A stretch of DNA of 53,225 nt from assembly GCA_025062295.1 (NCBI GenBank), contig JANXAJ010000012.1, positions 1 through 53,225 of the forward strand. Direction: 5' to 3'. Source of the DNA: Bacteroidia bacterium. GTDB lineage: Bacteria; Bacteroidota; Bacteroidia; SpSt-205. This document shows, in pieces, positions 3,166 to 17,700 of the stretch. Position 1 is the stretch's first letter; every line of letters begins with the position of its first letter. Under the pieces are notes generated by a model. It ran no database searches and was not told the origin of the DNA. It worked only from the letters and a program-made list of their open reading frames with translations. The translations under genes and the position numbers were made by a program.

Positions 3166-5228
3166 CCTTTTTTCTGCTCAAGGTACTGGCGACGAAGGAG
3201 GCGACGCATCACTTTATGAGAGGCGGTGCGGGGAAGCTCCTCTACCACTACCACATCATGAAGGTGAAAAAGAGGGCTAAGTTTTTCTCGGATCGCCTGA
3301 GCAAGAAGAGGGTACCAGTAGTCAGGAGCGCGTGAGGCATTAGCTTGAGGGACAATGTACAAGACGAGCTGTTCTGGTCCGCCTTCAGGTGGCGGGACAG
3401 CTACAGCAGCGCTTTCTCCGATGCCTGGCACCTGAACCGCCACTCGTTCAATTTCAGCAGAGGAAACCTTTATACCTCCTAAGTTCATCGCATCGTCAGC
3501 TCGCCCACCAGAGACCCAAAAGCCAGTCTTCAACCGACGCATGTAATCCCCATGTCGGCGCAGCCGAAGGGGAATCCCTGCATACTCCTGTTTGATAGGA
3601 GCCCCAGAAGCCCCTACCCACCCTTCCCCTATCGGAGGTGTGCCTTGATAATACACCTTTTCATGATCCGCATTTAGAAGGTGCTGAGAAAGTCCTATAG
3701 CAGGGGGTACTAAAAAGAGTTCCCCTTCATCACTTGGCTGACCCTCTTCATCAAGTAAGACAAAATCTAAACCTAAAGCTGGCGCAGCAAACTGACTGGG
3801 TGCATTTGCATGAAGAAGCGTGCTCGTGATATAACCTCCACCAATCTCTGTACCCCCACAGTATTCTATGATAGGCTTATATTTTGCTTTTGCCATCAAT
3901 TGCCACATATGCCAAGGGTTGGAGGCTTCGCCAGTAGAGCTAAAGAGCCGAATCCCCGACCAATCTACCCCCGCCCATGCATCGGATTCAATCCAGCGAC
4001 GCACTAACGAGGGCACCACTCCCAAGATAGACACCTTTTGCCTCTCTACAAACTGGCAAAATCCGGGACTGGTAGGCGCTCCCTCGTATAGGGCAATAGA
4101 GGCCCCATGAGATAGCCCAGCGAAAAGCAACCAAGGACCCATCATCCAGCCGAGATTCGTAGGCCATGTAATTGTGTCAGTGGAATGCACATCATGGTAA
4201 AAGTGTGCATCAGTGATTGCTTTGAGGGCGGTAAGCTGAGTCCACGGGATAGCCTTCGGCTCAGCTGTCGTCCCTGAGGAGAAAAGAACTCCTATCTCTC
4301 TATCCGAAGCTCCATAAAAAGGGGAGGCACCTCCCCCGCCCTCAGACAAAAAGGCACCCCACGTCAAGGCATTATTCCGAAGGCGCGCTTGCAAACTTTC
4401 ACCCCCAGCAAGGACGACAGTGGGAGGCAGAGCATAGGACTGAAGCCGTTCGTATAAGGGAATAAACCTACCCTCACGATAGAGGCCATCCTGAATAAAA
4501 AGAAAACGGGGAGCAGCAATGCGCAGCCGAGTCGCTATTTCTTCACCCGAGAGACTATCAGGAATTGTCACAACGGAAATCCCTGCATATAGTGCCCCTA
4601 AATAAATAAAGACCGCTTCAGGTCTCAGTGGCATACAAAGGGCGATGCGATCGCCGGGTGTTAGTTTATGAGCCAATAGGGCTGCGGCGACTCCTTGAAC
4701 TTCTCCGCTTAGCGCTTCATAACTCCATGTCTGAATCATTCCTCCCTCCCGCTGGTAAATCAAGGCAGGATGGGGGGCCGAGTCATGAGATAAAAGCAGT
4801 TCTATCACATTCCAGAGAGCCCCCACAAGCCAAAGCGGCTGAGCCACATCTCCCCTCTGAAAAGCTAAAACGGTATCGGGAGCACGCTTGAAGGGAACCT
4901 TTAATCGCTCAAAAATGACATATCGCCAAAAATCTGCCCGACGCTCTACGCTCCACCGATGAAGAGCTTTATAATTAGACCCCATCTCTCGCCAGTAGGG
5001 AGTGAAACTGGGCTCATCTCGAAGCTCTTCCAGTGCCTGAAAAAGATGTGTCTCCTGGGGAGAGCCCATCAATTCAGGATACCATAGCGGATAAAAGGGG
5101 GGGACCGCCTTCGTCTCAAAGCTATCCTCGTACAACTGAATGTGGGCTTCAAAGTCGCCTTCCAAAGCTCTACATCCCCGACACCACTTCTCTCGCTGGT
5201 GAGAAGGGGGGAGGTCAGACCACTGCAT
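3162..5228 (-). CDS. AMP-dependent acyl-CoA synthetase (acyl-activating enzyme)
   Basis: A 688-residue ANL-superfamily enzyme that activates a carboxylic acid with ATP and then forms the CoA thioester. Motifs in order: the AMP-binding loop FSSGTTAEPKAIPW (about residue 314), YCGGTEIGGGY (about 452), the hinge region around RRHGDYMRRLKTGFWVSGGRADD, and the C-terminal lysine in PRTASHKVMRRLLRR (about 673). The long N-terminal extension and overall form recall acetyl-/acetoacetyl-CoA synthetase relatives and plant AAE17/18-like enzymes rather than classical Acs, so the substrate is uncertain. The ATG lies 4 nt after a TATCTTTG box (5233-5240), which predicts a leaderless message. First gene of an operon with DUF5683 and PAP2-like genes. 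Confidence 0.85.
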   Translation of the reverse strand: MQWSDLPPSHQREKWCRGCRALEGDFEAHIQLYEDSFETKAVPPFYPLWYPELMGSPQETHLFQALEELRDEPSFTPYWREMGSNYKALHRWSVERRADFWRYVIFERLKVPFKRAPDTVLAFQRGDVAQPLWLVGALWNVIELLLSHDSAPHPALIYQREGGMIQTWSYEALSGEVQGVAAALLAHKLTPGDRIALCMPLRPEAVFIYLGALYAGISVVTIPDSLSGEEIATRLRIAAPRFLFIQDGLYREGRFIPLYERLQSYALPPTVVLAGGESLQARLRNNALTWGAFLSEGGGGASPFYGASDREIGVLFSSGTTAEPKAIPWTQLTALKAITDAHFYHDVHSTDTITWPTNLGWMMGPWLLFAGLSHGASIALYEGAPTSPGFCQFVERQKVSILGVVPSLVRRWIESDAWAGVDWSGIRLFSSTGEASNPWHMWQLMAKAKYKPIIEYCGGTEIGGGYITSTLLHANAPSQFAAPALGLDFVLLDEEGQPSDEGELFLVPPAIGLSQHLLNADHEKVYYQGTPPIGEGWVGASGAPIKQEYAGIPLRLRRHGDYMRRLKTGFWVSGGRADDAMNLGGIKVSSAEIERVAVQVPGIGESAAVAVPPPEGGPEQLVLYIVPQANASRAPDYWYPLLAQAIREKLSPLFHLHDVVVVEELPRTASHKVMRRLLRRQYLEQKKG

Positions 5229-5259
5229 GAGGCAAAGATACTTTGTACTTTATGGCATG
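5226..5259. promoter_or_regulatory. Divergent promoter between acyl-CoA synthetase and HD hydrolase genes
   Basis: On the minus strand TATCTTTG (5240-5233) is followed by 4 nt and the synthetase ATG. The inverted repeat CAAAG-ATA-CTTTG (5233-5245) places a second TTTG on the plus strand, 11 nt before the HD gene start at 5257, although the plus-strand box (ATACTTTG) lacks the leading TA in register. Start codons of the longest open frames overlap here (5227 and 5228), which argues for the HD start at 5257. Confidence 0.6.
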
Positions 5260-6447
5260 CTGCCTACGGCGAAAATTATTAATGATCCCGTTCATGGATT
5301 TATTCGGATTCCCGAGGGACGAATCCTGAAAGCCTTATCTCATCCTGTAGTTCAGCGGCTTCGCCGACTTACCCAGTTAGGTCTAGCTCAGTTTGTTTAT
5401 CCAGGAGCTGTCCATACTCGCTTCGCTCATGCGCTTGGGGTGATGCATCTTGCAGATGAAGCGCTCGCTTCCCTAAGCCGTAAAGGGCTCCTCCTCTCTA
5501 AAGAGAGCTGGGAGTCTGTTCTGCTTGCAGCCCTCCTTCATGACATTGGACACGGACCTTTTTCGCATAGCTTAGAGGGACAGCTTCTTCCCTTCTCCCA
5601 TGAAGAACTGGGATTCAGGCTTCTTTCTCTCTTAGCAGAGGAGGTCGGCGAGCTCTCAGAGATTCAAGCTCTATGGAAAGGCTCTCATCCCCACCCCTTT
5701 CTGTCTGAGCTAATCGCTAGCCAGTTAGATGTGGACCGATTAGACTATCTCGTTCGAGACAGTTTCTTCACAGGGGTCCAGGAGGGACTCATAGGAACCG
5801 AACGGCTTATTTATACGATGACCCTCGCCGACTCCCACTTAGCAGTAGAAGAAAAAGGACTGAATTCCGTAGAGAAGTTTATCGTTGCACGACGCTTTAT
5901 GTATTCGCAGGTATATCTCCACAAAGGTGTCTTAGGTTCAGAGCTGCTTCTCAAGCGATGGTGGGCTGCTCTCCACATCTCTGAAGAACTGCCTGTGCTT
6001 CTTCAGCGGCTTCAAAGCTCAGATGAGAGAGAAGCGGTTGAGACTTTTCTCCACATAGATGAAGCACAAATCTGGAGTTGGATTAGCGAAAAGGAGAGCG
6101 CTGGGTTTCCCCCTCTCCGAGCTTTGAGTAGGGCTCTTCTCTGGCGCATTCCCTACAAGATTCATTTCACCTCAGACCCCGAAACAATCAACTTCCTCAA
6201 AATGAAATGGGAAGCTGAGCTCCCACCTCGGGCTTACCCTTGGCGTGAGTGGTTCTGGGTAGAAGGTGAAGCTGAAAGCCTTGCCTACCTCCCCAGTCGA
6301 GAAGAAGAAATCCTAATCCTTCTCAAGAACGGATCTGCTCTTCCCTTGGCTCAGGTCAGCCCATGGCTTCAAAGTTTGAGCCGTCCTATGAAGAAGCCTT
6401 TTGGGGGTGGAATTCCCGCAGCTTCGCTTGAATCGCTGCTGCGGTAG
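5257..6447 (+). CDS. HD-domain metal-dependent phosphohydrolase (dNTPase-like)
   Basis: A 396-residue HD-superfamily protein resembling SAMHD1/deoxynucleotide triphosphohydrolase-like bacterial proteins. The signature metal ligands are visible: TRFAHALGVMHLADEAL (first His), LLAALLHDIGHGPFSHSLE (HD pair plus GHGPFSH), and SQLDVDRLDYLVRDSFFTG (final Asp). It probably hydrolyses phosphate esters of nucleotides; the substrate is not determinable. I prefer the ATG at 5257, giving MLPTAKIINDPVHGFI, where family proteins begin, over the ATG at 5227, which would overlap the divergent gene's start codon. The 3' end overlaps the convergent HIT gene by 62 bp. Confidence 0.86.
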   Translation: MLPTAKIINDPVHGFIRIPEGRILKALSHPVVQRLRRLTQLGLAQFVYPGAVHTRFAHALGVMHLADEALASLSRKGLLLSKESWESVLLAALLHDIGHGPFSHSLEGQLLPFSHEELGFRLLSLLAEEVGELSEIQALWKGSHPHPFLSELIASQLDVDRLDYLVRDSFFTGVQEGLIGTERLIYTMTLADSHLAVEEKGLNSVEKFIVARRFMYSQVYLHKGVLGSELLLKRWWAALHISEELPVLLQRLQSSDEREAVETFLHIDEAQIWSWISEKESAGFPPLRALSRALLWRIPYKIHFTSDPETINFLKMKWEAELPPRAYPWREWFWVEGEAESLAYLPSREEEILILLKNGSALPLAQVSPWLQSLSRPMKKPFGGGIPAASLESLLR

Positions 6448-6808
6448 CTTGAAACTCCTCTGGGGAGAGTTGAAGCCGTGGATTCTGAAAATTGAGATCA
6501 GCCATGGAACGAATAGGAATGAGATGGATGTGGGCATGAGGGACCTCCAGCCCAACTACAGCAAATGCTACCCGTTCACAAGGAATTGCTGCCTGAATCG
6601 CCCGAGCCACCTCCCGAGCAAAAAGCCATAGCCCTACATACAAGGGCTCCTCTAAATCTAAGAGATAATCCACCTCCTTTTTGGGGATAGCCAGTGTATG
6701 ACCCCGAGTCAGCGGACGGATGTCTAAAAACGCAAGATATTCTTCTGTCTCCGCTACCCGGTAGGCTGGTAGCTTTCCTTCTACAATTTGAGTGAATACG
6801 CTTGGCAT
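6386..6808 (-). CDS. HIT family protein (histidine-triad nucleotide hydrolase)
   Basis: A 140-residue cytoplasmic HIT protein that would hydrolyse the phosphoramidate or phosphoanhydride bond of AMP-linked substrates. It has the N-terminal ..FTQIVEGKLPAYRV.., FLDIRPLTRGHTLAIPK, and the triad PHAHIHLIPI (about residues 91-100, HxHxHxx). Its ATG shares one base with the greA stop (TGATG), so it is the last gene of the TonB-T9SS-PorV-greA operon or of a greA sub-operon. The 3' end runs 62 bp into the convergent HD gene, a longer antisense overlap than usual. The natural substrate is unknown. Confidence 0.9.
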   Translation of the reverse strand: MPSVFTQIVEGKLPAYRVAETEEYLAFLDIRPLTRGHTLAIPKKEVDYLLDLEEPLYVGLWLFAREVARAIQAAIPCERVAFAVVGLEVPHAHIHLIPIRSMADLNFQNPRLQLSPEEFQATAAAIQAKLREFHPQKASS

Positions 6809-7278
6809 CAGGTATAGCGAATTTCCAAGACTTTAAGTCGCATTTGACCAGCTGGCACTTGAACCACTACCTCATCTCCCACTCTCCGTCCAAGTAGAGC
6901 TCGCCCGATGGGGGATTCTACAGAGATTTTCCCTAATTGTACATTCGCTTCTACGGCAGGAACAAGCGTATAAAGGTGTTCGCGGTTCGTAGAGAGATTA
7001 AGCACTCGTACGGTAGCTAAAAGGCTGACCCGAGAAGTATCAATCTGAGATATATCTATAACCTGACTTTGAGCAAGGAGAGCCTCCAATTCAGCAATGC
7101 GAGCTTCCAAGAGACGCTGGGCTTCTCGTGCTGCGGCATACTCGGCATTTTCGCTCAGGTCGCCTTTCTCTCGCGCCTCGGCAATAGCTGCCGCCACCTC
7201 TGCGCGACGCCGCGTCTTGAGCTCATGCAGCTCTTCTCGCAATCGCTCAAAGGCTTCCTTTGTCAAGATTCGGCTCAT
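6808..7278 (-). CDS. greA: Transcription elongation factor GreA
   Basis: 156 residues, the normal GreA length. The protein binds the RNA polymerase secondary channel and stimulates cleavage of backtracked transcripts. The N-terminal coiled coil (about residues 8-75) contains REKGDLSENAEYAAAREAQ, whose Asp and Glu sit at the tip and are needed for cleavage stimulation. The C-terminal FKBP-like domain contains SPIGRALLGRRVGDEVVVQVPAG. The start overlaps the stop of the PorV-like gene by 4 nt (ATGA), so expression is coupled to an outer-membrane operon. The same frame stays open no further upstream of a plausible start. Confidence 0.95.
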   Translation of the reverse strand: MSRILTKEAFERLREELHELKTRRRAEVAAAIAEAREKGDLSENAEYAAAREAQRLLEARIAELEALLAQSQVIDISQIDTSRVSLLATVRVLNLSTNREHLYTLVPAVEANVQLGKISVESPIGRALLGRRVGDEVVVQVPAGQMRLKVLEIRYT

Positions 7279-8378
7279 ATGTATAGACGTGCTCCAATAC
7301 TATGCGTACCACTAAAAAAGTAAGTCGGACGAAAACTATAGTCAATCCCAAAAGTAGAATACCGATTCTCACCCGTACGGAAAGGCAGCTCTATTGTCGC
7401 TCCCATGCTCCATCCCATGAAGGCATTCTGAGTAGTTTCCTGGCTAGTAACGTCAGGCTCCCATAAGTAAGCCCCTCGGATCATGAAGTAGCTCTTATAC
7501 CTGAGCTCTAACCCAGCACCCAGTTGGTTATTTTGAAAGGAATGGGCATAAAATCCAATCATCGGCACTAAAGAGAACACATAATCTTTTTCTCCACCTG
7601 TTCCTCCTACGCTCGCTTCACGGCTTCGAATCTCAGTTTCGCCACCGAATCCAATACGATATGCCGCTCCGACCAGTAAAGCCGAGGGAATCTCAAATGA
7701 GGCAGCTGGCGTATGAACTAAGCTTGTAAAAGCACCTCCCGCTCCACTAAGATTGGCTCTGGCGGAAAGGCCCTCTCCCCGATATCGCATTTGCGGACCC
7801 ACATTTCGCAGCGCCACACCCAGCTTTAAGTTTCCTTTTTTGTCTCTATACTGAACACCCGCATCAAAGGCTACCCCATTTGCAGCAGCATCGGGGATGG
7901 ACTCATGAATGAGCTTGGCCGTAGCTCCAACAAATATCCGATCATCCGCAAAAACTTTGGCATATGAGAGAGAGATATTTAAGAAGGTAGGCGAGAAGTA
8001 GCCGATGCCCCCCTCAGGGTTATCAATCGTAGTCCGTTCAAATTGTCCTAAGTCAAAAGCCATTACAGCAATACCTAAAGTCCCCCCATTTCGGAAACCT
8101 TGGGCAAAACCCGCTACATTGATACTAATATCACTCCCAACCAGCCATCGGGTATGACTAAAGACGAATTCGGTCCGGCGGGTCAGAGCGATACCAGCAG
8201 GATTGATAATCACGCTCTCTATGCCATAAGTGTTAGCGATATTTAGCCCTCCCATCCCCGAGCTACGAGCATACGGATTGATGAGAAGTTGAGTGGCACC
8301 AGCAGAGCCTGCCCGTTCAGGATTGCCTGCAAGCAGGATTCCCCCTAAGAGAGCTAATACGATAAATGCAGCACGCAT
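7275..8378 (-). CDS. PorV/PorQ-family outer-membrane beta-barrel protein
   Basis: A 367-residue protein with a cleavable signal peptide (hydrophobic residues 3-17, ending near LLAGN). It begins GATQLLINPYARSSGMGGLNIANTYGIESVIINPAGIA, the typical start of the PorV/PorQ/UPF0164-like FadL-fold family, followed by alternating beta-strand segments and a C-terminal aromatic-rich strand. Family members such as PorV shuttle T9SS substrates to the attachment complex at the outer membrane. It sits 2 nt after the gene for a T9SS cargo, which supports, but does not prove, a dedicated shuttle for that cargo. It could instead be a porin-like or FadL-like channel. Confidence 0.8.
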   Translation of the reverse strand: MRAAFIVLALLGGILLAGNPERAGSAGATQLLINPYARSSGMGGLNIANTYGIESVIINPAGIALTRRTEFVFSHTRWLVGSDISINVAGFAQGFRNGGTLGIAVMAFDLGQFERTTIDNPEGGIGYFSPTFLNISLSYAKVFADDRIFVGATAKLIHESIPDAAANGVAFDAGVQYRDKKGNLKLGVALRNVGPQMRYRGEGLSARANLSGAGGAFTSLVHTPAASFEIPSALLVGAAYRIGFGGETEIRSREASVGGTGGEKDYVFSLVPMIGFYAHSFQNNQLGAGLELRYKSYFMIRGAYLWEPDVTSQETTQNAFMGWSMGATIELPFRTGENRYSTFGIDYSFRPTYFFSGTHSIGARLYI

Positions 8379-8380
8379 AT

Positions 8381-11300
8381 TCAGAAATTATTAAGGTCTA
8401 TTTGCGGCATAATAGCGAAAAACTTGATAACCTTCTCTCCGACGCCGGGCACATCCACATGGATGATATACACTCCGCTAGCGATAGGCACGCCGTAGTC
8501 ATTCTTTAGGTCCCATTCAATATAAGACTCCTCGGAGTCCTTTCGGAAAGTCCGTACAAGAACCCCATTCAAAGTGAAAATTCGGACAGTACAGCGAGGA
8601 GGTAAATTTGTGATTTTAGCCCGGGTGTCAATTTGACTGATTTCATATCGTCCTCGTCCGACGCCTGAGCGCCCGTAGAAGGGATTCGGAACAATTCGAA
8701 TGAGATTTAGAGCTTCTTTTGCAGTGGAGACATCACCGACGCGCGCAGCCAGCTCGCGAGTGGAAAAAGCAAAGGAGGGCGACTCCCCATTCGGGCCTCG
8801 CCGATAAGATTTATTCACACCGATAGTAATGCGAACCTCCGTTGGAATATCCTTATAATGACGAAACTCATATTGGGGACCTGTTACTCGAGCCAATGTA
8901 GCCCATGCCACATACTTATAAAAAGAGTCTATCCGAACTACACCCCCACCTGGCTTGTTGAAACGAAGTCCCGCTTCTCCTACAGTTGTAAAGTTGAGGG
9001 GAGGATTGTCCCCCACACAGAGCCACTCAGCAAATTTCGCACACTCATCATATGGATAGGTCGTCACCAAAATCCAATGACGCCCCCCAAAGGCATTACT
9101 ACCTGTTCCGAGAGTAGAAGTAGGATTGAAAAGCATATCATCGCCATTATCCCCTCTAAACCAGGAAGCCTCCGCAAAGAGGATATTGACCCGTTCCCCT
9201 GTCTCTAAGTTGATGGCATACCCCGGGAACCAGCTGAACCCTTGAGAAGCAACAGAGAGAGGCTGATTGCGATAAGCCAGCGTGTCGCCTTGAATTACAT
9301 CCCGACTAAGACGCCATTTCGCTACTCTGGGGGACCCAGCTCCTACTAATCGTCCCAAGCTCGTAGAGGGCGAAGATTCCAAGACCAGACACTTGGACCA
9401 CTTAGAGCGGTCGGGTGTAATCACAATCTGCATACTGGGAAGGCGAGAAAGTACAATTGCCTCGGTAGGAATAGCGCCGTACAGCGGAGCATCACCCGCA
9501 CATGCCCCGCCACAAAAGCCAATCCCAAATCCTAAAAGATCCGGTCGCCTTTCCGAAAGAGGAGTCAAGAGAGGAAAAGGCACCCATCCCTGTGATGTAG
9601 AGTCCTGATAATACACCCGAGCATGGCCGTCATAGAAGTAAAACCATGGCAGCGAGGCAGAAGGAGCAATAGGGAAGTCCGCCACTCCTCTTTCGCGTCG
9701 ACGAGCCGAACGAAGGGTAATCTGACATCCACGCTCATAATCCTGGACAGGCTGGAGCAGATCCGCATTCTCATAGGTCGGCTTGAGCTCTCCACCCTCC
9801 AAAAGCCCTGGACCCCGAGCCCATCCAAACTGCTCCATCGAGAAAAACGACAGCCAGGGCTTTGTCGGGTCAGCATACTCTATTTCTACCCCTATAAGGC
9901 CATTCCGAACATCCTGAATGAAGTAATAATAGGCAAAATTCGCCGTGTCCCTCTCTACCTCACATATCCATGGATAAGCTGAACGCGCCAGCACCCGACT
10001 TGGACTCCCATAAAAAGAACCATCAATCCCTGGATCAATCGCTTGACGAACCGAAATGGCAATCCCATGTCCTGGAATAATCCTCTCTGTGCCATTATGA
10101 TATCGTTCTAAGAGGAACTCTAGAGTATTCCGCTGATAGTCCCATCGCCTCTCTGAAATGGGAGCCCATGAAGTATAAAGCAGCTCTTCAGGGGTTCCAC
10201 TCCCTGCTGGTCGCCCATACAGCTCCCACTCTTTCACAAGAATAGTCGGTTCCAAGCCAGAAATAACCTGGCGAACAGTGGTATCTAAGTTGATCACAAG
10301 CCGATACTCATACGATTTGACCTGTTTTGGATCTATTACTCGGACCTTGACAGGCCCAAAGCCAGCCATATACTGGAGAGGCTCACTCCGATAGGGCGAA
10401 ACAAGAGCCTGCTGTTCAGCCTCTGGGGTCAGCCGAAGAAAATTCCCCCCATTCCCTTGACCACTAAGCCGCCGCACCGATACACCATCCCCATATGCAC
10501 TATTCAGTACTGTCCCACCGCTTCGCATCGTCGGCTTATGAGGGATAGCTTCATACCGCCTGACATTATTGCGACCTAATAAAAACTTTCGGTTATTCAA
10601 GGAATCCCCATTATAAGCATAAGCAACAATCATAAAGTAGTACCTCTGATAATTCTTGAGCCGCGGATCAGTTCCTTCAGCAAACTTATCCTCAGTCACA
10701 CGGATTGAATAAAATAGACCTTGATCAGCGCCATTCACCATTACCTTATCCACTATCAAAGGTTCAGGTTGTCCAGGTAGGGCTGTCTTTTCTCGGTTGA
10801 CGATAGCAGTGATTCCATTCTTGATATCACATTGAGCGATAAGGGCAGCTCGGGTGGGATCTTGAAGATCCGCTTCTGAGACCCGAGCGTCACGCAACTG
10901 ATAAATGAGGTATCCTTCAAATCGGTAAGTAGAATCGCGTGCACCCAAAGATTTGAGGACAGGGTCAACTTGGCTATAATTTTCAAAGTAGTTATTGGAA
11001 AGTGGATTTTTATACCGCCAGCTCAGGATGAGTTCCTGATCTAATTCTACGATTTCAAGATCAGGGGCATCAGGTCCATCTACTAATTGGAAATTATTGT
11101 CAAACAGGGCTTGGGCCACATCATCCGCCTGATAGAGAAGGCAGACAGAGCCAATGCGTCCGTCGCCGCCGGGTCCGTAGATGCCGTTGATATCGCGAGC
11201 CCACGGCACCCCAATAATGATATCATTCACAGCTCCAGGCTGAAGGACAAAAGGACCTGCTGACTGAAGGTATCGGCGATCAAACGGGCTATTCCCTGCT

Positions 11301-12568
11301 GTAGCCTCATCCCATCCTGCTGCTGGCGGAGAAAAAGGGCAGCGAGCCACCGCATCGGCTCCACCCGGATGGCCGGTGTAAATAAAATTCGTTGGACCCC
11401 CAAGCCCACCATATCCATTCCTATTATTTGCTATTAGGGGCGAACCGTCTTTCCAAATAGAGCGCATGTAGTTGTAGTAGTGGATCGCATTAGTAGGGTT
11501 CCCCCGCACACTAAAGTCATTCTCATAATACATGAAGTTGGTCATCTTGAGCCGATTGCCGTTTTCATCCTTTGGACCTTGGAAGAAGTCTGTCCCAATC
11601 GCAGGAGGGTTTAAGCCATATCCAGGCCCAGAAGGGTCATCAAAAGGATCACCATTATAGCAATATCCTAAGCCCCTGCTCGTATCACACCCTACATAAT
11701 CATCACTATACATCCCTAAATCCGCATCTACCCACACCGCCATATAAGCATCTCGCAGGGCTAAACTCCCTCGGTTGATGATGCGGTACTTATAAAAGGT
11801 CATATCATTCACTTGATCAGTAGTGGCGAAAGCAAAAGCCATCGCTTGGACTTCCAAGCCAATGGGAGGCGCCCCAGTCTCCGTATGTACATTCCCTTTA
11901 TCGTTATAGACCCACCAGATGGCCATGTCACCCAGCACATCAGGGTAGTCCCCCGCCGCTGGCGTATAATCCCCATCATTATTCACATCTACGAAGGGGG
12001 CTAAAGTACGCTCAAACCCTGGGGTAGGATTAATTGCAGGCCAGCTTACGATATTAGGAAACTCCCCCAGGTTAAGGTTTTGAGGATTCGTCTGAAAAGC
12101 AGAGCGGAAAGCGTTGATTTCTTTTCGGGTGATAACAAAGTGACGATCCCACTGCTGACAGGTGTTTTCATCGGTTGTTCCTTGGAGAGAGAGGGGACCC
12201 GCAAAGTAGTCAATTCCGCTTTGGCGATAGGTCTGAGCAGCAAGACGCAGGCGCCCAGCTGCATCCAGCCCCCCGACCCACACCGCACTGGCAAACATAG
12301 AGTGAACCGCTGGCACGCCAGGAGGCACCTTGGGGATTTCGTATCGGGGCGCGCTTACCAGATCCCACCACATATCTCCGCCATTGTGGATAAGACATCT
12401 GACATTACTGATGTCCAATTGCACGCTGGAAGTCGGCGCTGTACAAGTGCTGGCTGTACGAGGCGCTATCCGCCGTTCTACCGACCCCAAAATCTGCTTG
12501 CTCCATCCGATACCCAATCCAGCCCCTATCACCCATAGCATGGAAAAAGTCCGCATTCTTCTTTGCAT
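8381..12568 (-). CDS. Large secreted protein with T9SS C-terminal sorting domain
   Basis: A 1395-residue exported protein. An N-terminal hydrophobic signal (about residues 5-22) is followed by SNVRCLIHNGGDMWWD and FASAVWVGGLDAAGRLRLAA, blocks found near the N-terminus of large Bacteroidota surface proteins. A calcium-binding-like DVNNDGDYTPAAGDYP lies near residue 194. The C-terminal ~90 residues (IVPNPFYG.., ITNLPPRCTVRIFTLNG, ASGVYIIHVDVPGVGEK, ending DLNNF) form a type A T9SS sorting domain. No catalytic domain is recognisable; adhesion or surface coat are possible roles. It is flanked by a TonB receptor (12 nt upstream) and a PorV-like protein (2 nt downstream). Confidence 0.82.
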   Translation of the reverse strand: MQRRMRTFSMLWVIGAGLGIGWSKQILGSVERRIAPRTASTCTAPTSSVQLDISNVRCLIHNGGDMWWDLVSAPRYEIPKVPPGVPAVHSMFASAVWVGGLDAAGRLRLAAQTYRQSGIDYFAGPLSLQGTTDENTCQQWDRHFVITRKEINAFRSAFQTNPQNLNLGEFPNIVSWPAINPTPGFERTLAPFVDVNNDGDYTPAAGDYPDVLGDMAIWWVYNDKGNVHTETGAPPIGLEVQAMAFAFATTDQVNDMTFYKYRIINRGSLALRDAYMAVWVDADLGMYSDDYVGCDTSRGLGYCYNGDPFDDPSGPGYGLNPPAIGTDFFQGPKDENGNRLKMTNFMYYENDFSVRGNPTNAIHYYNYMRSIWKDGSPLIANNRNGYGGLGGPTNFIYTGHPGGADAVARCPFSPPAAGWDEATAGNSPFDRRYLQSAGPFVLQPGAVNDIIIGVPWARDINGIYGPGGDGRIGSVCLLYQADDVAQALFDNNFQLVDGPDAPDLEIVELDQELILSWRYKNPLSNNYFENYSQVDPVLKSLGARDSTYRFEGYLIYQLRDARVSEADLQDPTRAALIAQCDIKNGITAIVNREKTALPGQPEPLIVDKVMVNGADQGLFYSIRVTEDKFAEGTDPRLKNYQRYYFMIVAYAYNGDSLNNRKFLLGRNNVRRYEAIPHKPTMRSGGTVLNSAYGDGVSVRRLSGQGNGGNFLRLTPEAEQQALVSPYRSEPLQYMAGFGPVKVRVIDPKQVKSYEYRLVINLDTTVRQVISGLEPTILVKEWELYGRPAGSGTPEELLYTSWAPISERRWDYQRNTLEFLLERYHNGTERIIPGHGIAISVRQAIDPGIDGSFYGSPSRVLARSAYPWICEVERDTANFAYYYFIQDVRNGLIGVEIEYADPTKPWLSFFSMEQFGWARGPGLLEGGELKPTYENADLLQPVQDYERGCQITLRSARRRERGVADFPIAPSASLPWFYFYDGHARVYYQDSTSQGWVPFPLLTPLSERRPDLLGFGIGFCGGACAGDAPLYGAIPTEAIVLSRLPSMQIVITPDRSKWSKCLVLESSPSTSLGRLVGAGSPRVAKWRLSRDVIQGDTLAYRNQPLSVASQGFSWFPGYAINLETGERVNILFAEASWFRGDNGDDMLFNPTSTLGTGSNAFGGRHWILVTTYPYDECAKFAEWLCVGDNPPLNFTTVGEAGLRFNKPGGGVVRIDSFYKYVAWATLARVTGPQYEFRHYKDIPTEVRITIGVNKSYRRGPNGESPSFAFSTRELAARVGDVSTAKEALNLIRIVPNPFYGRSGVGRGRYEISQIDTRAKITNLPPRCTVRIFTLNGVLVRTFRKDSEESYIEWDLKNDYGVPIASGVYIIHVDVPGVGEKVIKFFAIMPQIDLNNF

Positions 12569-12580
12569 AGGACTTATAAT

Positions 12581-15500
12581 TTAGAAGTTGAAAAGCATGC
12601 CAAGCCGAATCCGAAGAGGAGCCCCTAAAAGACCTGGATTTCGCTCCTTGAGTCGATAAAGAAATTCAAAAGTCTCCCTAGAGTATTGACTTGCCGCCAA
12701 CTGCTGTCCAACCGGAGACTGAATATACCCACTGTCATCTGGCAGTCCAGTATATGGATAGACGCCTATCACATTTCTCTGATTGAAAGCGTTCAAAAAG
12801 ATAACATACAGATTCAGAATTGACTGCTTGTCTTCGCCTCTTCGGATAATAAAATCTCTATCCACCCGAATATCAAAGCGGTTATACCATGGCAAGTTGT
12901 TTCCAAATGGCTGCCCGCTAATCAGACTGACAGGATTGACCCCAAATTGTACATCCGCAGGGTTCGGTAGAATATAGCGAGTATAAGGACGACCCGAACC
13001 AAGATTATAGGTGATGTTGATTCCTGCTCCCTTGAGTGGATAAATCACTCGCTCTCCCAGCCGAACAGCTGGTCCTTTGACGCCTCGCTCCAGAAATCGT
13101 ATATCAGCCACTCCTGTGAAAGTATGTCGCTGATCAAAAGAGAGCGGAAGGAGGGAGCGAAAGACATTGAACCCCTCTATGCTCCCGATAATCCCACGGT
13201 TAGATGTAGGTGATGAACCTGTCCCCTGTGCATATTGCAGGGTATAAGCAAACCGAAGCTCTAATACCCCTATCCGACGAATATCTACATCTACATTTAT
13301 CCCCTTGACAGTGGCAAAGTCCAAGTTTTCAAAAGCAGTATAGCTCACTGGATAGGCTCCTAAGAAGAAGAAGCTTTGAACAAGATTCCGCATCTCCCGA
13401 TAGTAGCCAGAGATAGAGAGCGCAATATTTTGAGTCAGAAGCTGCTTGAAGCCCACCTCAAAATCAATTGTTTGTTCAGGACGCAGGGCTGGATTAGCTT
13501 GCTGAAGTGTCGCATTTTGCAGAATAAAAAGCCAATCCACGAATTGAGCGACCTGTCCAGCTCTAGGCCGCTGAGTGAGCACATCATAGTGAGCAAAGAA
13601 TGTCGCTTCATCCGAGATGGGGAAGGAGAAAGAAATGCGTGGCATGATATTGATCTGAGGCCGATAGTCCTCAAAGGCTTCATAGGTGAGGGTATCCTGC
13701 TTGAGGTGAGGCAAAGCTCTCCCTCCAGAGGCTCGAGTAATAGCCAGAGCGCTCGTAGGATTTCCATTCGCATCATACCAGACATTCCCACTCCGAAAGC
13801 CTATGATGCGGGTTGGATTGAGCGCATTATCCACATAAGCCACCCAATCCCCTCCCACCCCCTGCGGTAGCTCCACACCTAAAATCCTTGCAGTCTCCTG
13901 TGCCCGATAAAACGGACGAATAATATAGGGGTCCTTAAGAATTGGGATATTCGCATCAAAGCGATCCACTCGGACCCCTATGTTGAAAAACATTCTGTCA
14001 AACTCAAACTTGTCTTGCGCATACAGAGCCACGTATGTCGGAGAAAAAGCATTCTGAGGACGATTCTGTGTATCAGAGAAAAACCGTTCAGGCGCCACTC
14101 GGCGAGCCCTTTTTCCCCATGGGGTGTAACCTTGATAAAACACCGCTGGGTTTCCCCCTGCAAAAAGGTCTTGAATATCAAACATGTCAATATCAAAGAA
14201 AGAGGGATCCATCGCATCTGGCTCTATAAGGTCTAGCCCATCCACTGGCAGTCCAAGCTTCTCTCGCATCTTTCTATCAAAGTGGCTCTGCTGGTCTGCT
14301 TGGTACAGACGCCGATACCGAATCGTATCGCCAGAAAAAATGCGCGAGGACCGATCCAGCTCCTGTAAATGGCGATTCGCATACAGCCGCATAAGCTGCC
14401 ACAGGTATCCTGCCGATACACCGTAAAACCGACTATACCTCTGATCAAACTCAAATCCAGCCTTCAGGTTATGACGCCCCAATTCCACCGCCGCCTGACC
14501 CGTAATCCGAAACATTTCACCATCACTAAATGAAGCCCCCGTAGCAGGTGGATAACCCTGACCAAAGTAAAGATTGTAAATTAGGGTCTGAGCCCCGAGA
14601 ATCCCATTCACATTCCCCCCTAACTGAAGAAGGTCTATAAAGTTCCGAACCCTAGAACTTGGCTCTATGCTAAGGGTGAGAGGATTGAAAAGTAGGCGCG
14701 GATTCTGGCGAAGATAGTTGTAAATGTATGTGTTATAGTTTGCCAAAGTAGGATAAGAGCTGTTAGATGGATCAAAGATATACTCATTTTCTACAAAACC
14801 CAATGATTCATATACAGGAAGGTTGCCATCGGAAAGGGTAGGAACCAGCAATTCTGCATACTTCGTCTGAAAGCGTCCAATATGAGTATAATAGAACCAG
14901 TTCAACTGATACTGATCATCAACTGTACGGGTGGTGTTTCTAGTGAAGTCAAACTGGAGGGTGTAGAAAAAGTTTCTCAATACACTTCCTGTATCTCCAG
15001 GGAAAGATTGCTGAAGGCGAACAAAGGAACGGACGGTTCGGAAATAGGTAACGGCTGCTGTTTCATATGCGAGCAGGGACCGAGAGAGGGACCAAGAAAC
15101 AGTTCTGGAGTCTTCGCCATTAAGACCAAATTTGAGAAATGCATTTTCACCTAGACGAAGGTCCATCCGTAAATTCGCTCTCAATTGTCTGAGCGGAGCA
15201 CCCTGCCGATAAGGAATGCGCTCAATCTGATCGGGTCGAATAAAGTTTGCCCGATTCACAAAGAAAGCCTGTCCCGTCCCAAAAGGCTGGAGTGGGGTCG
15301 CCTTCAAGTCCTCTAAGACCTCGGGCTTGACCCGATAGACCCCCCCATAAGGTGGACCATAATCCCGTTCATGCTGAAATTCCGTGCTAAAGGCATATCC
15401 TAAGATAGGTATCTTCAAACCATCTTCTCGCGTTCGAGAGAAAATTGGTCCGGAAGCATTGAAGGCAAAGAGATTGAAGCGATAGGGATCCGTGAATTGA

Positions 15501-16216
15501 CTGGACTGAATCTCTCCCCCGAAAGTGTGAAAGCCGCTCGGCGCCCCTGTTGTGATCTGGACTACGCCTCCCATCACATCTCCAAACTCAGCCGGTATGC
15601 CACCCGTATAAATAGAAAGCTGAGAAATTCCTCGCTGCGGCATCCCTAAAATCCCAACCACTCGAACTCCATCTATGAAGTATTGGGTTGCATCCGAACG
15701 AGCTCCACGAACGAAAACAGACCCACCATCATCCGCTTGATAAACCCCTGCCGATGTAGCTAAAAAAGTAGTAACATTTCGAGTCCCCATCTTCTGAATC
15801 TGCTCCAGGGTAATAGTTTTGCCCGTTACTGTTTCATCTTTTTCAAATAACGGGACTTTATAATCCACGATGACTTGCGTCTCCGCTTCTACACTGGATT
15901 CCATATTGATGTCTAATACAATCGTGCGATTGGGGGTAACAACAACCCCGCTCACAGTGAAATTCTTACCTGCATAGCTCGCCCTGACATCGTAGGTACC
16001 AGGAGACACTGGAGCGATACTGTATTCCCCATTCTCGTTTGTATTAGCACCTCCTTTTACAACCCCATTCTGAAGGATGACGACAGTTGCGAAAGCTAAC
16101 GGCTCTTTGGTAATCTTATCTCGGACTACCCCTCGGATTTTTCCCGCATCTTGCTGGGCAAAGGCTATGGTGAGCCATCCTAAAAGCATCAATCCTTTTC
16201 CTATCCCTGCTCGCAT
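12581..16216 (-). CDS. TonB-dependent outer-membrane receptor with carboxypeptidase-regulatory domain
   Basis: A 1211-residue receptor. The signal peptide ends near IAFAQQ. A carboxypeptidase-regulatory-like beta-sandwich follows (about residues 27-105: IRGVVRDKITKEPLAFATV.., ENGEYSIAPVSPGTYDV), then a plug domain (about 125-235, SVFVRGARSDATQYFIDGV) and a large beta-barrel ending in LRIRLGMLFNF with a terminal aromatic, as outer-membrane barrels do. Such receptors import large substrates with TonB/ExbBD energy; the ligand is unknown and no SusD partner is adjacent. I use the ATG at 16216; the frame extends to a TTG two codons upstream. A TATATTTG box at 16239-16246 lies 22 nt before the ATG. 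First gene of the TonB-T9SS-PorV operon. Confidence 0.9.
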   Translation of the reverse strand: MRAGIGKGLMLLGWLTIAFAQQDAGKIRGVVRDKITKEPLAFATVVILQNGVVKGGANTNENGEYSIAPVSPGTYDVRASYAGKNFTVSGVVVTPNRTIVLDINMESSVEAETQVIVDYKVPLFEKDETVTGKTITLEQIQKMGTRNVTTFLATSAGVYQADDGGSVFVRGARSDATQYFIDGVRVVGILGMPQRGISQLSIYTGGIPAEFGDVMGGVVQITTGAPSGFHTFGGEIQSSQFTDPYRFNLFAFNASGPIFSRTREDGLKIPILGYAFSTEFQHERDYGPPYGGVYRVKPEVLEDLKATPLQPFGTGQAFFVNRANFIRPDQIERIPYRQGAPLRQLRANLRMDLRLGENAFLKFGLNGEDSRTVSWSLSRSLLAYETAAVTYFRTVRSFVRLQQSFPGDTGSVLRNFFYTLQFDFTRNTTRTVDDQYQLNWFYYTHIGRFQTKYAELLVPTLSDGNLPVYESLGFVENEYIFDPSNSSYPTLANYNTYIYNYLRQNPRLLFNPLTLSIEPSSRVRNFIDLLQLGGNVNGILGAQTLIYNLYFGQGYPPATGASFSDGEMFRITGQAAVELGRHNLKAGFEFDQRYSRFYGVSAGYLWQLMRLYANRHLQELDRSSRIFSGDTIRYRRLYQADQQSHFDRKMREKLGLPVDGLDLIEPDAMDPSFFDIDMFDIQDLFAGGNPAVFYQGYTPWGKRARRVAPERFFSDTQNRPQNAFSPTYVALYAQDKFEFDRMFFNIGVRVDRFDANIPILKDPYIIRPFYRAQETARILGVELPQGVGGDWVAYVDNALNPTRIIGFRSGNVWYDANGNPTSALAITRASGGRALPHLKQDTLTYEAFEDYRPQINIMPRISFSFPISDEATFFAHYDVLTQRPRAGQVAQFVDWLFILQNATLQQANPALRPEQTIDFEVGFKQLLTQNIALSISGYYREMRNLVQSFFFLGAYPVSYTAFENLDFATVKGINVDVDIRRIGVLELRFAYTLQYAQGTGSSPTSNRGIIGSIEGFNVFRSLLPLSFDQRHTFTGVADIRFLERGVKGPAVRLGERVIYPLKGAGINITYNLGSGRPYTRYILPNPADVQFGVNPVSLISGQPFGNNLPWYNRFDIRVDRDFIIRRGEDKQSILNLYVIFLNAFNQRNVIGVYPYTGLPDDSGYIQSPVGQQLAASQYSRETFEFLYRLKERNPGLLGAPLRIRLGMLFNF

Positions 16217-16238
16217 ATACAAGGACGTTTACAGCAGA

Positions 16239-16267
16239 CAAATATAGTGCAAACAGCATATTTACAA
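16239..16267 (-). promoter_or_regulatory. Promoter of the TonB receptor operon
   Basis: On the minus strand TTG, 18 nt, then TATATTTG (16246-16239) match the Bacteroidota -33/-7 pattern. The -7 box ends 22 nt before the ATG, so this operon should have a short leader, unlike the leaderless genes in the window. Confidence 0.6.
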
Positions 16268-16299
16268 GGGTGCCTTCCCTTCTGAGGGAAAGGTCAGCG

Positions 16300-16314
16300 T
16301 ATCTTTGCTCAATG
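16300..16314 (+). promoter_or_regulatory. -7 box and leaderless start of lipoamide dehydrogenase gene
   Basis: TATCTTTG (16300-16307), 4 nt, then ATG at 16312. With a transcription start 4-6 nt after the box the message would begin at or next to the start codon. Confidence 0.7.
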
Positions 16315-17700
16315 GAGAAGCATGTGATTGTGATTGGGGGGGGGCCGGGCGGCTATGTGGCAGCTATTCGAGCAAGTCAATTAGGCTTTAAGACCCAGCT
16401 CATAGAACGGGAACAGCTTGGCGGCGTTTGCCTCAACTGGGGCTGCATCCCCACAAAAGCTCTCCTTAAGTCCGCCGAAGTGCTGGAATACCTCTTAAAT
16501 GCTGAAAGCTACGGTTTCCGTATCGGCGAACCTCATGTGGATTTTTCAGGGATTATTGCCCGTAGTCGCAGTATAGCAGAGAAAATGAGTCGGGGAATAG
16601 ATTTCCTCATGCGGAAGAATAAAATAGAAGTTATAAAGGGCACTGCTCGCCTCGTCCCTGGCCCAAAGGTGGAGGTAACTCTGCCAGATGGCAGCCGTAC
16701 CCTTTTGGAAGCGCCTCACATCATCTTAGCCACGGGGGGGCGCCCCGCCAACCTTCCCCACATCCAGATAGATGGACGCCTCGTTATCGGCTACCGAGAG
16801 GCTATGACCCTCCCCAAACAGCCTAACACCCTCCTCGTCATTGGCGCAGGAGCTATCGGAGTGGAATTTAGCTATTTCTATCATACCTTAGGCACGAAGG
16901 TAACCCTCGTAGAGGCCCTGCCTCACATCCTCCCGCGCGAGGATGAAGAAATAAGCCGTGAGCTTGAAAAGATTTACCGCAAAAAAGGTCTGACTATCCT
17001 CACAAGCACGCAAGTTACTGAACTCCAAAAGACCAAAAAAGGCATCAAAGCCACTCTGCAGACCCCTAAAGAACTTCTGCAGGTAGAGGCAGAGGTTGCC
17101 CTTTTAGCAGTAGGGATTACACCAAACACAGACGGAATTGGCTTAGAGGAGGTTGGTATCAAGCTGGAGAGAGGACGCGTCGTAGTGGATGAGTTCTACC
17201 GAACCACCCAACCAGGAATATATGCGATTGGAGACATTTTGCCCACTCCTGCCCTTGCTCACGTGGCTTCCCTTGAAGGCATCATCTGTGTGGAAAAAAT
17301 TGCTGGACTTGATCCAGAACCGCTGGATTACAGCATAGTGCCAAGTTGTACCTACTGTCAGCCCGAAGTAGCTTCTATGGGCTTGACCGAAAAGGCTGCT
17401 CGCGAGAAAGGCTACAACATTCAAGTCGGTAAATTTCCCTACACAGCTTCGGGCAAAGCCTCAGCCAGCGGCAAAACTGAAGGCTTTGTCAAGCTTATCT
17501 TTGATGCTCAATATGGAGAACTCTTAGGAGCCCATATTCTCGGCGCAAATGCAACTGAAATGATAGGGGAGCTTGTAACGGCCCGACGATTAGAAACCAC
17601 TGGTCATATCTTATCTAAGACCATTCATCCTCACCCTACCCTTTCTGAAGCCATTATGGAAGCCGCCGCCGCTGCCTACGGTGAGGCTATCCACATTTAA
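16312..17700 (+). CDS. lpdA: Dihydrolipoamide dehydrogenase (E3)
   Basis: A 462-residue flavoprotein disulfide reductase that reoxidises dihydrolipoamide in pyruvate/2-oxoglutarate dehydrogenase and glycine cleavage complexes, reducing NAD. It has the FAD-binding IGGGPGGYVAA (residues 8-18), redox-active cysteines C40 and C45 in GGVCLNWGCIPTKAL, the NAD-binding IGAGAIGVEF, YAIGDILPTPALAHVA for the FAD ribityl, and the C-terminal HPHPTLSEAIMEAA that supplies the His-Glu active-site pair. The in-frame ATG at 16270 would add 14 residues, but the TATCTTTG box sits just before 16312, which also gives a normal N-terminus (MEKHVIVIGGG). It stands alone, followed by a separate small transcription unit. 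Confidence 0.94.
   Translation: MEKHVIVIGGGPGGYVAAIRASQLGFKTQLIEREQLGGVCLNWGCIPTKALLKSAEVLEYLLNAESYGFRIGEPHVDFSGIIARSRSIAEKMSRGIDFLMRKNKIEVIKGTARLVPGPKVEVTLPDGSRTLLEAPHIILATGGRPANLPHIQIDGRLVIGYREAMTLPKQPNTLLVIGAGAIGVEFSYFYHTLGTKVTLVEALPHILPREDEEISRELEKIYRKKGLTILTSTQVTELQKTKKGIKATLQTPKELLQVEAEVALLAVGITPNTDGIGLEEVGIKLERGRVVVDEFYRTTQPGIYAIGDILPTPALAHVASLEGIICVEKIAGLDPEPLDYSIVPSCTYCQPEVASMGLTEKAAREKGYNIQVGKFPYTASGKASASGKTEGFVKLIFDAQYGELLGAHILGANATEMIGELVTARRLETTGHILSKTIHPHPTLSEAIMEAAAAAYGEAIHI

Follow-up and report, generated by a model that had tools for sequence, protein, structure and literature searches.

What do three adjacent genes, encoding a TonB-dependent receptor (TBDR), a very large protein that resembles substrates of the type IX secretion system (T9SS; below, the cargo) and an outer-membrane barrel of the PorV/PorQ family, do together? 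They lie in contig JANXAJ010000012.1 of a Bacteroidia bacterium, of which the whole stretch analysed (the window) comprises 53,225 nt, with all genes of interest on the minus strand. An earlier sequence-only reading had described a 1211-residue receptor, a 1395-residue protein and a barrel separated by gaps of 12 and 2 nt, a layout that the open reading frame (ORF) coordinates bear out, and had proposed a dedicated uptake or attachment unit. In Bacteroidota, SusCD pairs count as the hallmark machinery of nutrient import. With a probability that we put at roughly 0.6, the trio is likewise a nutrient-capture and import unit, SusC/SusD-like with a different delivery route.

Conservation, co-evolution and genomic context of the trio

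A scan of GTDB genomes yielded a cargo family of 32 loci, with a cargo match in 53 of 60 relatives. The family profile matches 163 of 296 genomes of the phylum and 106 of 140 genera, part of these matches spanning the C-terminal domain (CTD) alone, and distant members share 37-48% identity with the window cargo over its whole length. Five well-sampled families (f16, f23, f37, f42 and f50 by their tool labels) gave no full-length cargo match in the genomes searched. Neighbours were called with hidden Markov models built from the loci of the first GTDB scan; outside these loci the Bacteroidia were sampled by a single genome from each family, with its top cargo match. The three genes are inherited together, and the order TBDR-cargo-barrel is kept in virtually every Bacteroidota family in which a full-length cargo was found. 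Among the first-scan loci, the TBDR gene immediately precedes the cargo gene in 20 of 21 and the barrel gene immediately follows it in 22 of 23, the two misses being genes split in two assemblies; the corresponding figures are 20/22 and 19/21 for Bacteroidia and 18/19 and 19/20 for other classes. Misses outside the first-scan loci come from three solo-cargo loci (L136, L138 and L117). A trio is present at another locus in two of the genomes concerned (L150 and L151); in the remaining one, a second cargo match is followed at about 1.5 kb by a matching barrel (contig C18). Because the arrangement is kept across the phylum, it is not a product of chance. The earlier reading would have been weakened had the three genes not been neighbours in relatives or had the cargo occurred mostly without a receptor; instead they are neighbours phylum-wide, and a full-length cargo is rarely without a receptor. 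A literature search for descriptions of the trio returned none beyond unremarked gene lists, subscription literature being mostly outside its reach. As a separate observation, two KatS3mg assemblies (L015 and L016) have the cargo split into two frames, as are the receptor in L016 and the barrel in L015, possibly through sequencing errors.

Some genomes carry many trios, which allowed partners to be compared within a genome. For these paralogous, or sister, trios, most of the PorV-family loci of four genomes from classes other than Bacteroidia were examined; many are complete trios, 10 in G086, 8 in G120, 4 in G237 and 2 in G074. Their cargos are about 620 to 1290 residues long, and many are recognisable mainly by the CTD. 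Within-genome distances correlate at 0.84 for receptor and barrel, 0.73 for receptor and CTD, 0.57 for CTD and barrel, and 0.78 for receptor and the rest of the cargo. When partners were shuffled inside each genome the mean was about 0 (standard deviation about 0.1), and none of 2000 shuffles reached the observed value (P = 0.0005). The co-evolution of the three proteins that had been suggested as a check is therefore present (r 0.57-0.84 against shuffles of about 0), and the trees of receptor, cargo and barrel agree. The trios therefore duplicate and evolve as units, which alone does not prove physical contact.

The surroundings of the sister trios are rich in carbohydrate genes. The 8 kb that follow each of 19 paralogous trios hold 81 neighbours, among them members of GHL10 (four), of the glycoside hydrolase (GH) families GH3 (three), GH13 amylase (three) and GH16 (two), chondroitinase B (two), ABC permeases (three) and sodium-solute symporters (SSF; two). 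Individual loci also contain GH9, a sugar-type binding protein, GH5 together with CBM6/35, and a protein matching CBM20/53; one sister trio has a GH94 gene just upstream. For comparison, 16 PorV-family loci outside trios, from the same genomes, have 69 neighbours, and no glycoside hydrolase is among the 25 families listed for these. Genes for carbohydrate-active enzymes (CAZymes) linked to a receptor, by which polysaccharide utilization loci (PULs) are recognised, thus accompany many paralogous trios but not the window copy, which is followed by greA and a HIT gene. Proteins with FG-GAP_3 and ASPIC/UnbV domains also recur beside paralogous trios, alongside the glycoside hydrolases (alignment A4).

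We sought SusD as two families, PF07980 and PF14322. Neither occurs in 17 of 27 trio genomes, including the window's own and G120 with its eight trios, whereas all seven tested T9SS genomes lacking a trio have SusD, with 1 to 40 copies each; the plain hypergeometric probability of this contrast, kinship ignored, is about 0.004. In a published alginate locus of Rhodothermus marinus, consecutive genes encode a TonB receptor, a T9SS type A protein and a member of the PorV/PorQ family; the paper presents this trio without comment and names no SusD (PMC9530828). A published figure of the Porphyromonas hmu clusters includes a porV/Q gene and one whose product has a T9SS signal (PMC12106395), in an order that the figure legend does not convey, and they are not used as evidence here.

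The cargo signal, its barrel and the receptor

The cargo had been described as T9SS-sorted and free of known domains. The latter description holds, no Pfam family matching even at E<=1, SusD included, and a PDB sequence search returned no relative except a weak match to the CTD of PorZ; on these grounds we rejected identification of the cargo by domain search as a known enzyme or adhesin. The former holds at the level of fold but not at curated sequence cut-offs (TIGR04183 and PF18962). In the structure prediction (mean pLDDT 79.6 for the C-terminal half), the cargo ends in a C-terminal beta-sandwich with the fold of known signals, as expected for a T9SS signal of any class. A structure search matched the CTD model to PorZ (5m11), the CTD of NucA (8glk_D), PorU and the CTD of RgpB; against the NucA signal trapped in the translocon, the TM-score is 0.64 on the target, at 3.3 A over 73 columns. 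A genome search with Pfam Por_Secre_tail (PF18962) did not report the trio locus, and the window cargo has no match to type B T9SS signals. Each of the 162 other genomes of the phylum that match the cargo profile has SprA, and none of 68 SprA-negative genomes has a cargo match. From the fold and this co-occurrence we infer that the cargo is a T9SS substrate.

The signal appears to form a class of its own. The CTDs of ten trio cargos, each group drawn from different families, share 57% identity on average, compared with 24% for nine short proteins that have the cargo N-terminal domain and ordinary type A tails, and the end of the cargo CTD is family-specific, with an invariant K and a final D-L motif. 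In known T9SS complexes, by comparison, the signal surface contacting the translocon is poorly conserved (PMC10994853). The extra solo full-length cargos found in some genomes carry a CTD of the trio kind, and a matching barrel was found in nine of nine tested genomes with such cargos and in none of seven trio-less T9SS genomes. Together, the CTD conservation, the solo-cargo CTDs and the barrel co-occurrence suggest that one signal class is matched to one barrel class.

The N-terminal part of the cargo is predicted confidently (pLDDT 85.7) and has no convincing fold match among solved structures. We do not claim a GH94/GH116-like supersandwich for it, Foldseek E-values down to 1.5e-6 coming with a TM-score of about 0.25 and 11-17 A root mean square deviation (r.m.s.d.). 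Solo proteins of 500-600 residues (L141-L149) share this domain and end in ordinary type A T9SS signals. Overall, the predicted structure is very large and beta-rich, with FN3-like matches. No close paralogue of the cargo, nor of the receptor, was found in the window's own genome. Elsewhere, Bacteroidetes genome GWF2_38_335 has an array of five head-to-tail cargo-related genes for about 630-830 residues each (L033:8042-21217), with neither receptor nor barrel as neighbours.

The barrel scores 134.8 bits against the PorV_fam model NF033709 (cut-off 90), in agreement with the family first assigned to it. It stays below the equivalog cut-offs of PorQ (79.3 of 220 bits, its highest equivalog score), PorV (59.6 of 250) and PorV2 (45.4 of 325) and belongs to a separate clade (support 0.993), and identification as canonical PorV, PorQ or PorV2 was rejected for these reasons. 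The window genome has three PorV_fam members above the cut-off, the trio barrel included. Barrels of the PorV family are T9SS carriers (PMC10994853), and PorU stays bound to PorV, and PorZ to PorQ, via uncleaved signals (reviewed in PMC10202324). In the trio genomes canonical porV has porU directly upstream, just as the cargo precedes the barrel. Given these precedents, and since the signal of the cargo most resembles that of PorZ and the barrel scores best on PorQ among equivalogs, the barrel may by analogy both carry and retain its cargo. At three further loci (L198, L214 and L224) a receptor gene is followed directly by a PorV-family barrel, no recognised cargo lying between them; L198 has a cargo fragment upstream of the receptor.

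The window receptor has CarboxypepD_reg, Plug (PF07715) and OMP_b-brl_3 (PF14905) domains, the latter two above their Pfam cut-offs, and thus the plug and beta-barrel of a TBDR. It has no match to SusC (TIGR04056) at E<=1, and two sister-trio receptors reach 79-84 bits against a cut-off of 368, so we rejected membership in SusC.

The uptake reading and its rivals

An uptake machine whose cargo captures substrate for the receptor is the simplest common explanation of the CAZyme contexts of the sister trios, the SusD shortage and the alginate locus. The cargo would cross the outer membrane through the T9SS translocon SprA by means of its CTD, with the neighbouring PorV/PorQ-like barrel as its own carrier. 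By holding on to the uncleaved CTD, this barrel would then retain the cargo on the cell surface, just as PorZ stays with PorQ and PorU with PorV; there the cargo could act as an extracellular capture or lid subunit of the neighbouring TBDR. The dedicated uptake unit envisaged in the sequence-only reading is partly supported, gaining from the CAZyme contexts of the sister trios, the SusD shortage and the alginate locus; surface retention of the cargo would follow by analogy. We hold more tentatively, at somewhat less than even odds, that such trios are a second phylum-wide architecture of TonB-dependent uptake, in which a receptor, a capture protein that the T9SS delivers by a separate class of signal, and a PorQ-like barrel as carrier and retainer form a counterpart of SusCD, including complete PUL-like loci in SusD-free genomes, and in which the conserved single copy imports a widely needed compound.

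Several points weigh against reading the trio as an importer. The CAZyme counts rest on four genomes, for which the top 25 Pfam families were listed. Both the SusD and the SprA associations are phylogenetically confounded, many of the SprA-negative genomes being of one family and not an independent sample. At 16 bits against 23 for TIGR04183, the cargo CTD is below the type A cut-offs, and its N-terminal domain is only weakly similar to the GH94/GH116 supersandwich of carbohydrate enzymes (TM about 0.25). The window copy is of a widely conserved type that adjoins housekeeping genes, not CAZymes, and its ligand may not be a glycan; the deep relatives of this single copy have mostly non-CAZyme neighbours, with one amylase. 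Finally, some genomes hold extra solo full-length cargos lacking the trio neighbours, and because of these an adjacent receptor gene is not strictly needed by the cargo.

The solo cargos also fit a dedicated secretion set with no partnership in uptake, in which the barrel exports the cargo, as expected from the carrier role of its family (PMC10994853), while the receptor either takes up an unrelated substrate or persists through operon history alone. We consider this unlikely, given that the receptor co-evolves with cargo and barrel in the within-genome trios at least as strongly as these do with each other, and that sister trios lie in nutrient loci. It is still less probable that the receptor serves export or surface assembly of the cargo instead of nutrient import. 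Such a role would parallel that of Oar, which is required for PopC secretion in Myxococcus and shares the CarboxypepD_reg and Plug architecture of the receptor (PMC6434023), but this architecture is common in Bacteroidota, the cargo has its own T9SS-type signal and carrier-type barrel, and sister trios stand beside polysaccharide-degrading genes and sugar transporters.

To a structural or attachment unit, in which the cargo would be a barrel-anchored adhesin or a surface-layer-like protein and the receptor an extra anchor or sensor, we give a similarly small chance. The predicted size, beta-rich fold and FN3-like matches of the extracellular cargo would suit it, as would the lack of CAZyme neighbours at the window copy; a TBDR with a plug, however, is an odd anchor, and the CAZyme contexts of the sister copies favour uptake.

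The import unit that we prefer has parallels in several known systems. Like SusC/SusD (RagA/RagB), it pairs a TBDR carrying CarboxypepD_reg with a large surface partner encoded beside it and has paralogues in polysaccharide loci, but in place of a surface lipoprotein of SusD fold the trio has a T9SS-type protein that comes with a PorV-like barrel of its own, the receptor is below the SusC cut-off, and many trio genomes, the window's included, lack SusD. With the PorZ-PorQ and PorU-PorV attachment complexes it shares the pairing of a T9SS-signal protein with a PorV-family barrel that would retain it, together with the CTD and barrel likenesses and the gene order given above; it differs in that the barrel falls short of the PorQ cut-off and the cargo of the PorZ one, a receptor is added, and the barrels form a separate clade. 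By the cut-offs tested the trio is a member of neither SusCD nor PorZ-PorQ, although it would work like both. Type B substrates with PorP/SprF, such as SprB-SprF, also group the gene of the cargo with one for a dedicated PorV-like barrel (PMC10202324), but the window cargo has no type B match, the trio barrel is of the PorV/PorQ family, and the SprB-SprF pair has no receptor. The T11SS/Slam loci (TbpB/TbpA and the hemophilin locus HrpC-HrpB-HrpA) likewise combine a dedicated exporter, a surface or secreted ligand binder and a TonB receptor (PMC8406197), but belong to another phylum and differ in secretion system, exporter family and cargo fold. The tonB-hypA-hypB genes of the Rhodothermus marinus alginate locus are likened to the trio by gene order and annotations, not by sequence; their polysaccharide is known, and their cargo is shorter (2181 nt; PMC9530828).

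If many Bacteroidota import nutrients with a T9SS-exported, barrel-held capture subunit instead of SusCD, search tools that rely on SusD overlook entire groups of polysaccharide loci, many PorV/PorQ paralogues acquire an explained role, and the T9SS is a builder of uptake machines and not a secretion route alone. Direct tests are possible in named culturable species, for example on the alginate locus of Rhodothermus marinus. Conservation of the single copy across most sampled Bacteroidia families marks a basic function not yet assigned.

The window locus and its flanks

Coordinates of the trio, its protein domains and the adjoining features within the window.
Feature	Position	Strand	Remarks
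TonB-dependent receptor	12581..16216	-	ATG start, 1211 aa; CarboxypepD_reg, Plug and barrel
T9SS cargo	8381..12568	-	1395 aa; no Pfam domain; family spread across the phylum
Cargo N-terminal domain, residues about 40-495	11084..12451	-	Common to short T9SS proteins elsewhere
Cargo CTD, residues 1284-1395	8384..8719	-	T9SS-signal fold, strongly conserved
PorV/PorQ-family outer-membrane barrel	7275..8378	-	367 aa; trio-specific clade apart from canonical PorV
greA	6808..7278	-	4-nt overlap with barrel gene
HIT-domain gene	6386..6808	-	1-nt overlap with greA
Candidate Bacteroidota -7 promoter element TATATTTG	16239..16246	-	Consensus match alone; 30 nt upstream of receptor ATG

The greA and HIT genes had been noted as appended to the trio by short overlaps, and the coordinates agree. 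Both genes follow the trio in 22 of 22 first-scan loci and in 15 of 19 Bacteroidia loci, compared with 0 of 19 loci of other classes; as conserved followers in class Bacteroidia only, they are probably housekeeping passengers of that one lineage.

Searches for sigma-70-type promoters and terminators gave frequencies not above those in shuffles, and a riboswitch or other known RNA element, sought as a clue to the ligand, was not found. The candidate promoter 5' of the receptor is a Bacteroidota-type TAnnTTTG box, with a similar box at -29 in three relatives, and a single shared promoter and transcript for the trio operon is plausible on this pattern. Next to it (window 16217-16330), a divergent gene resembling that of dihydrolipoamide dehydrogenase has a TATCTTTG box of its own, a few nt 5' of an ATG, which places two opposed Bacteroidota-type promoter boxes within the gap of about 100 nt between this gene and the receptor. 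At the other end, the HIT gene and a convergent ORF on the plus strand (5227-6447), which looks like an HD-domain gene, overlap by 62 nt at their 3' ends (window 6386-6447).

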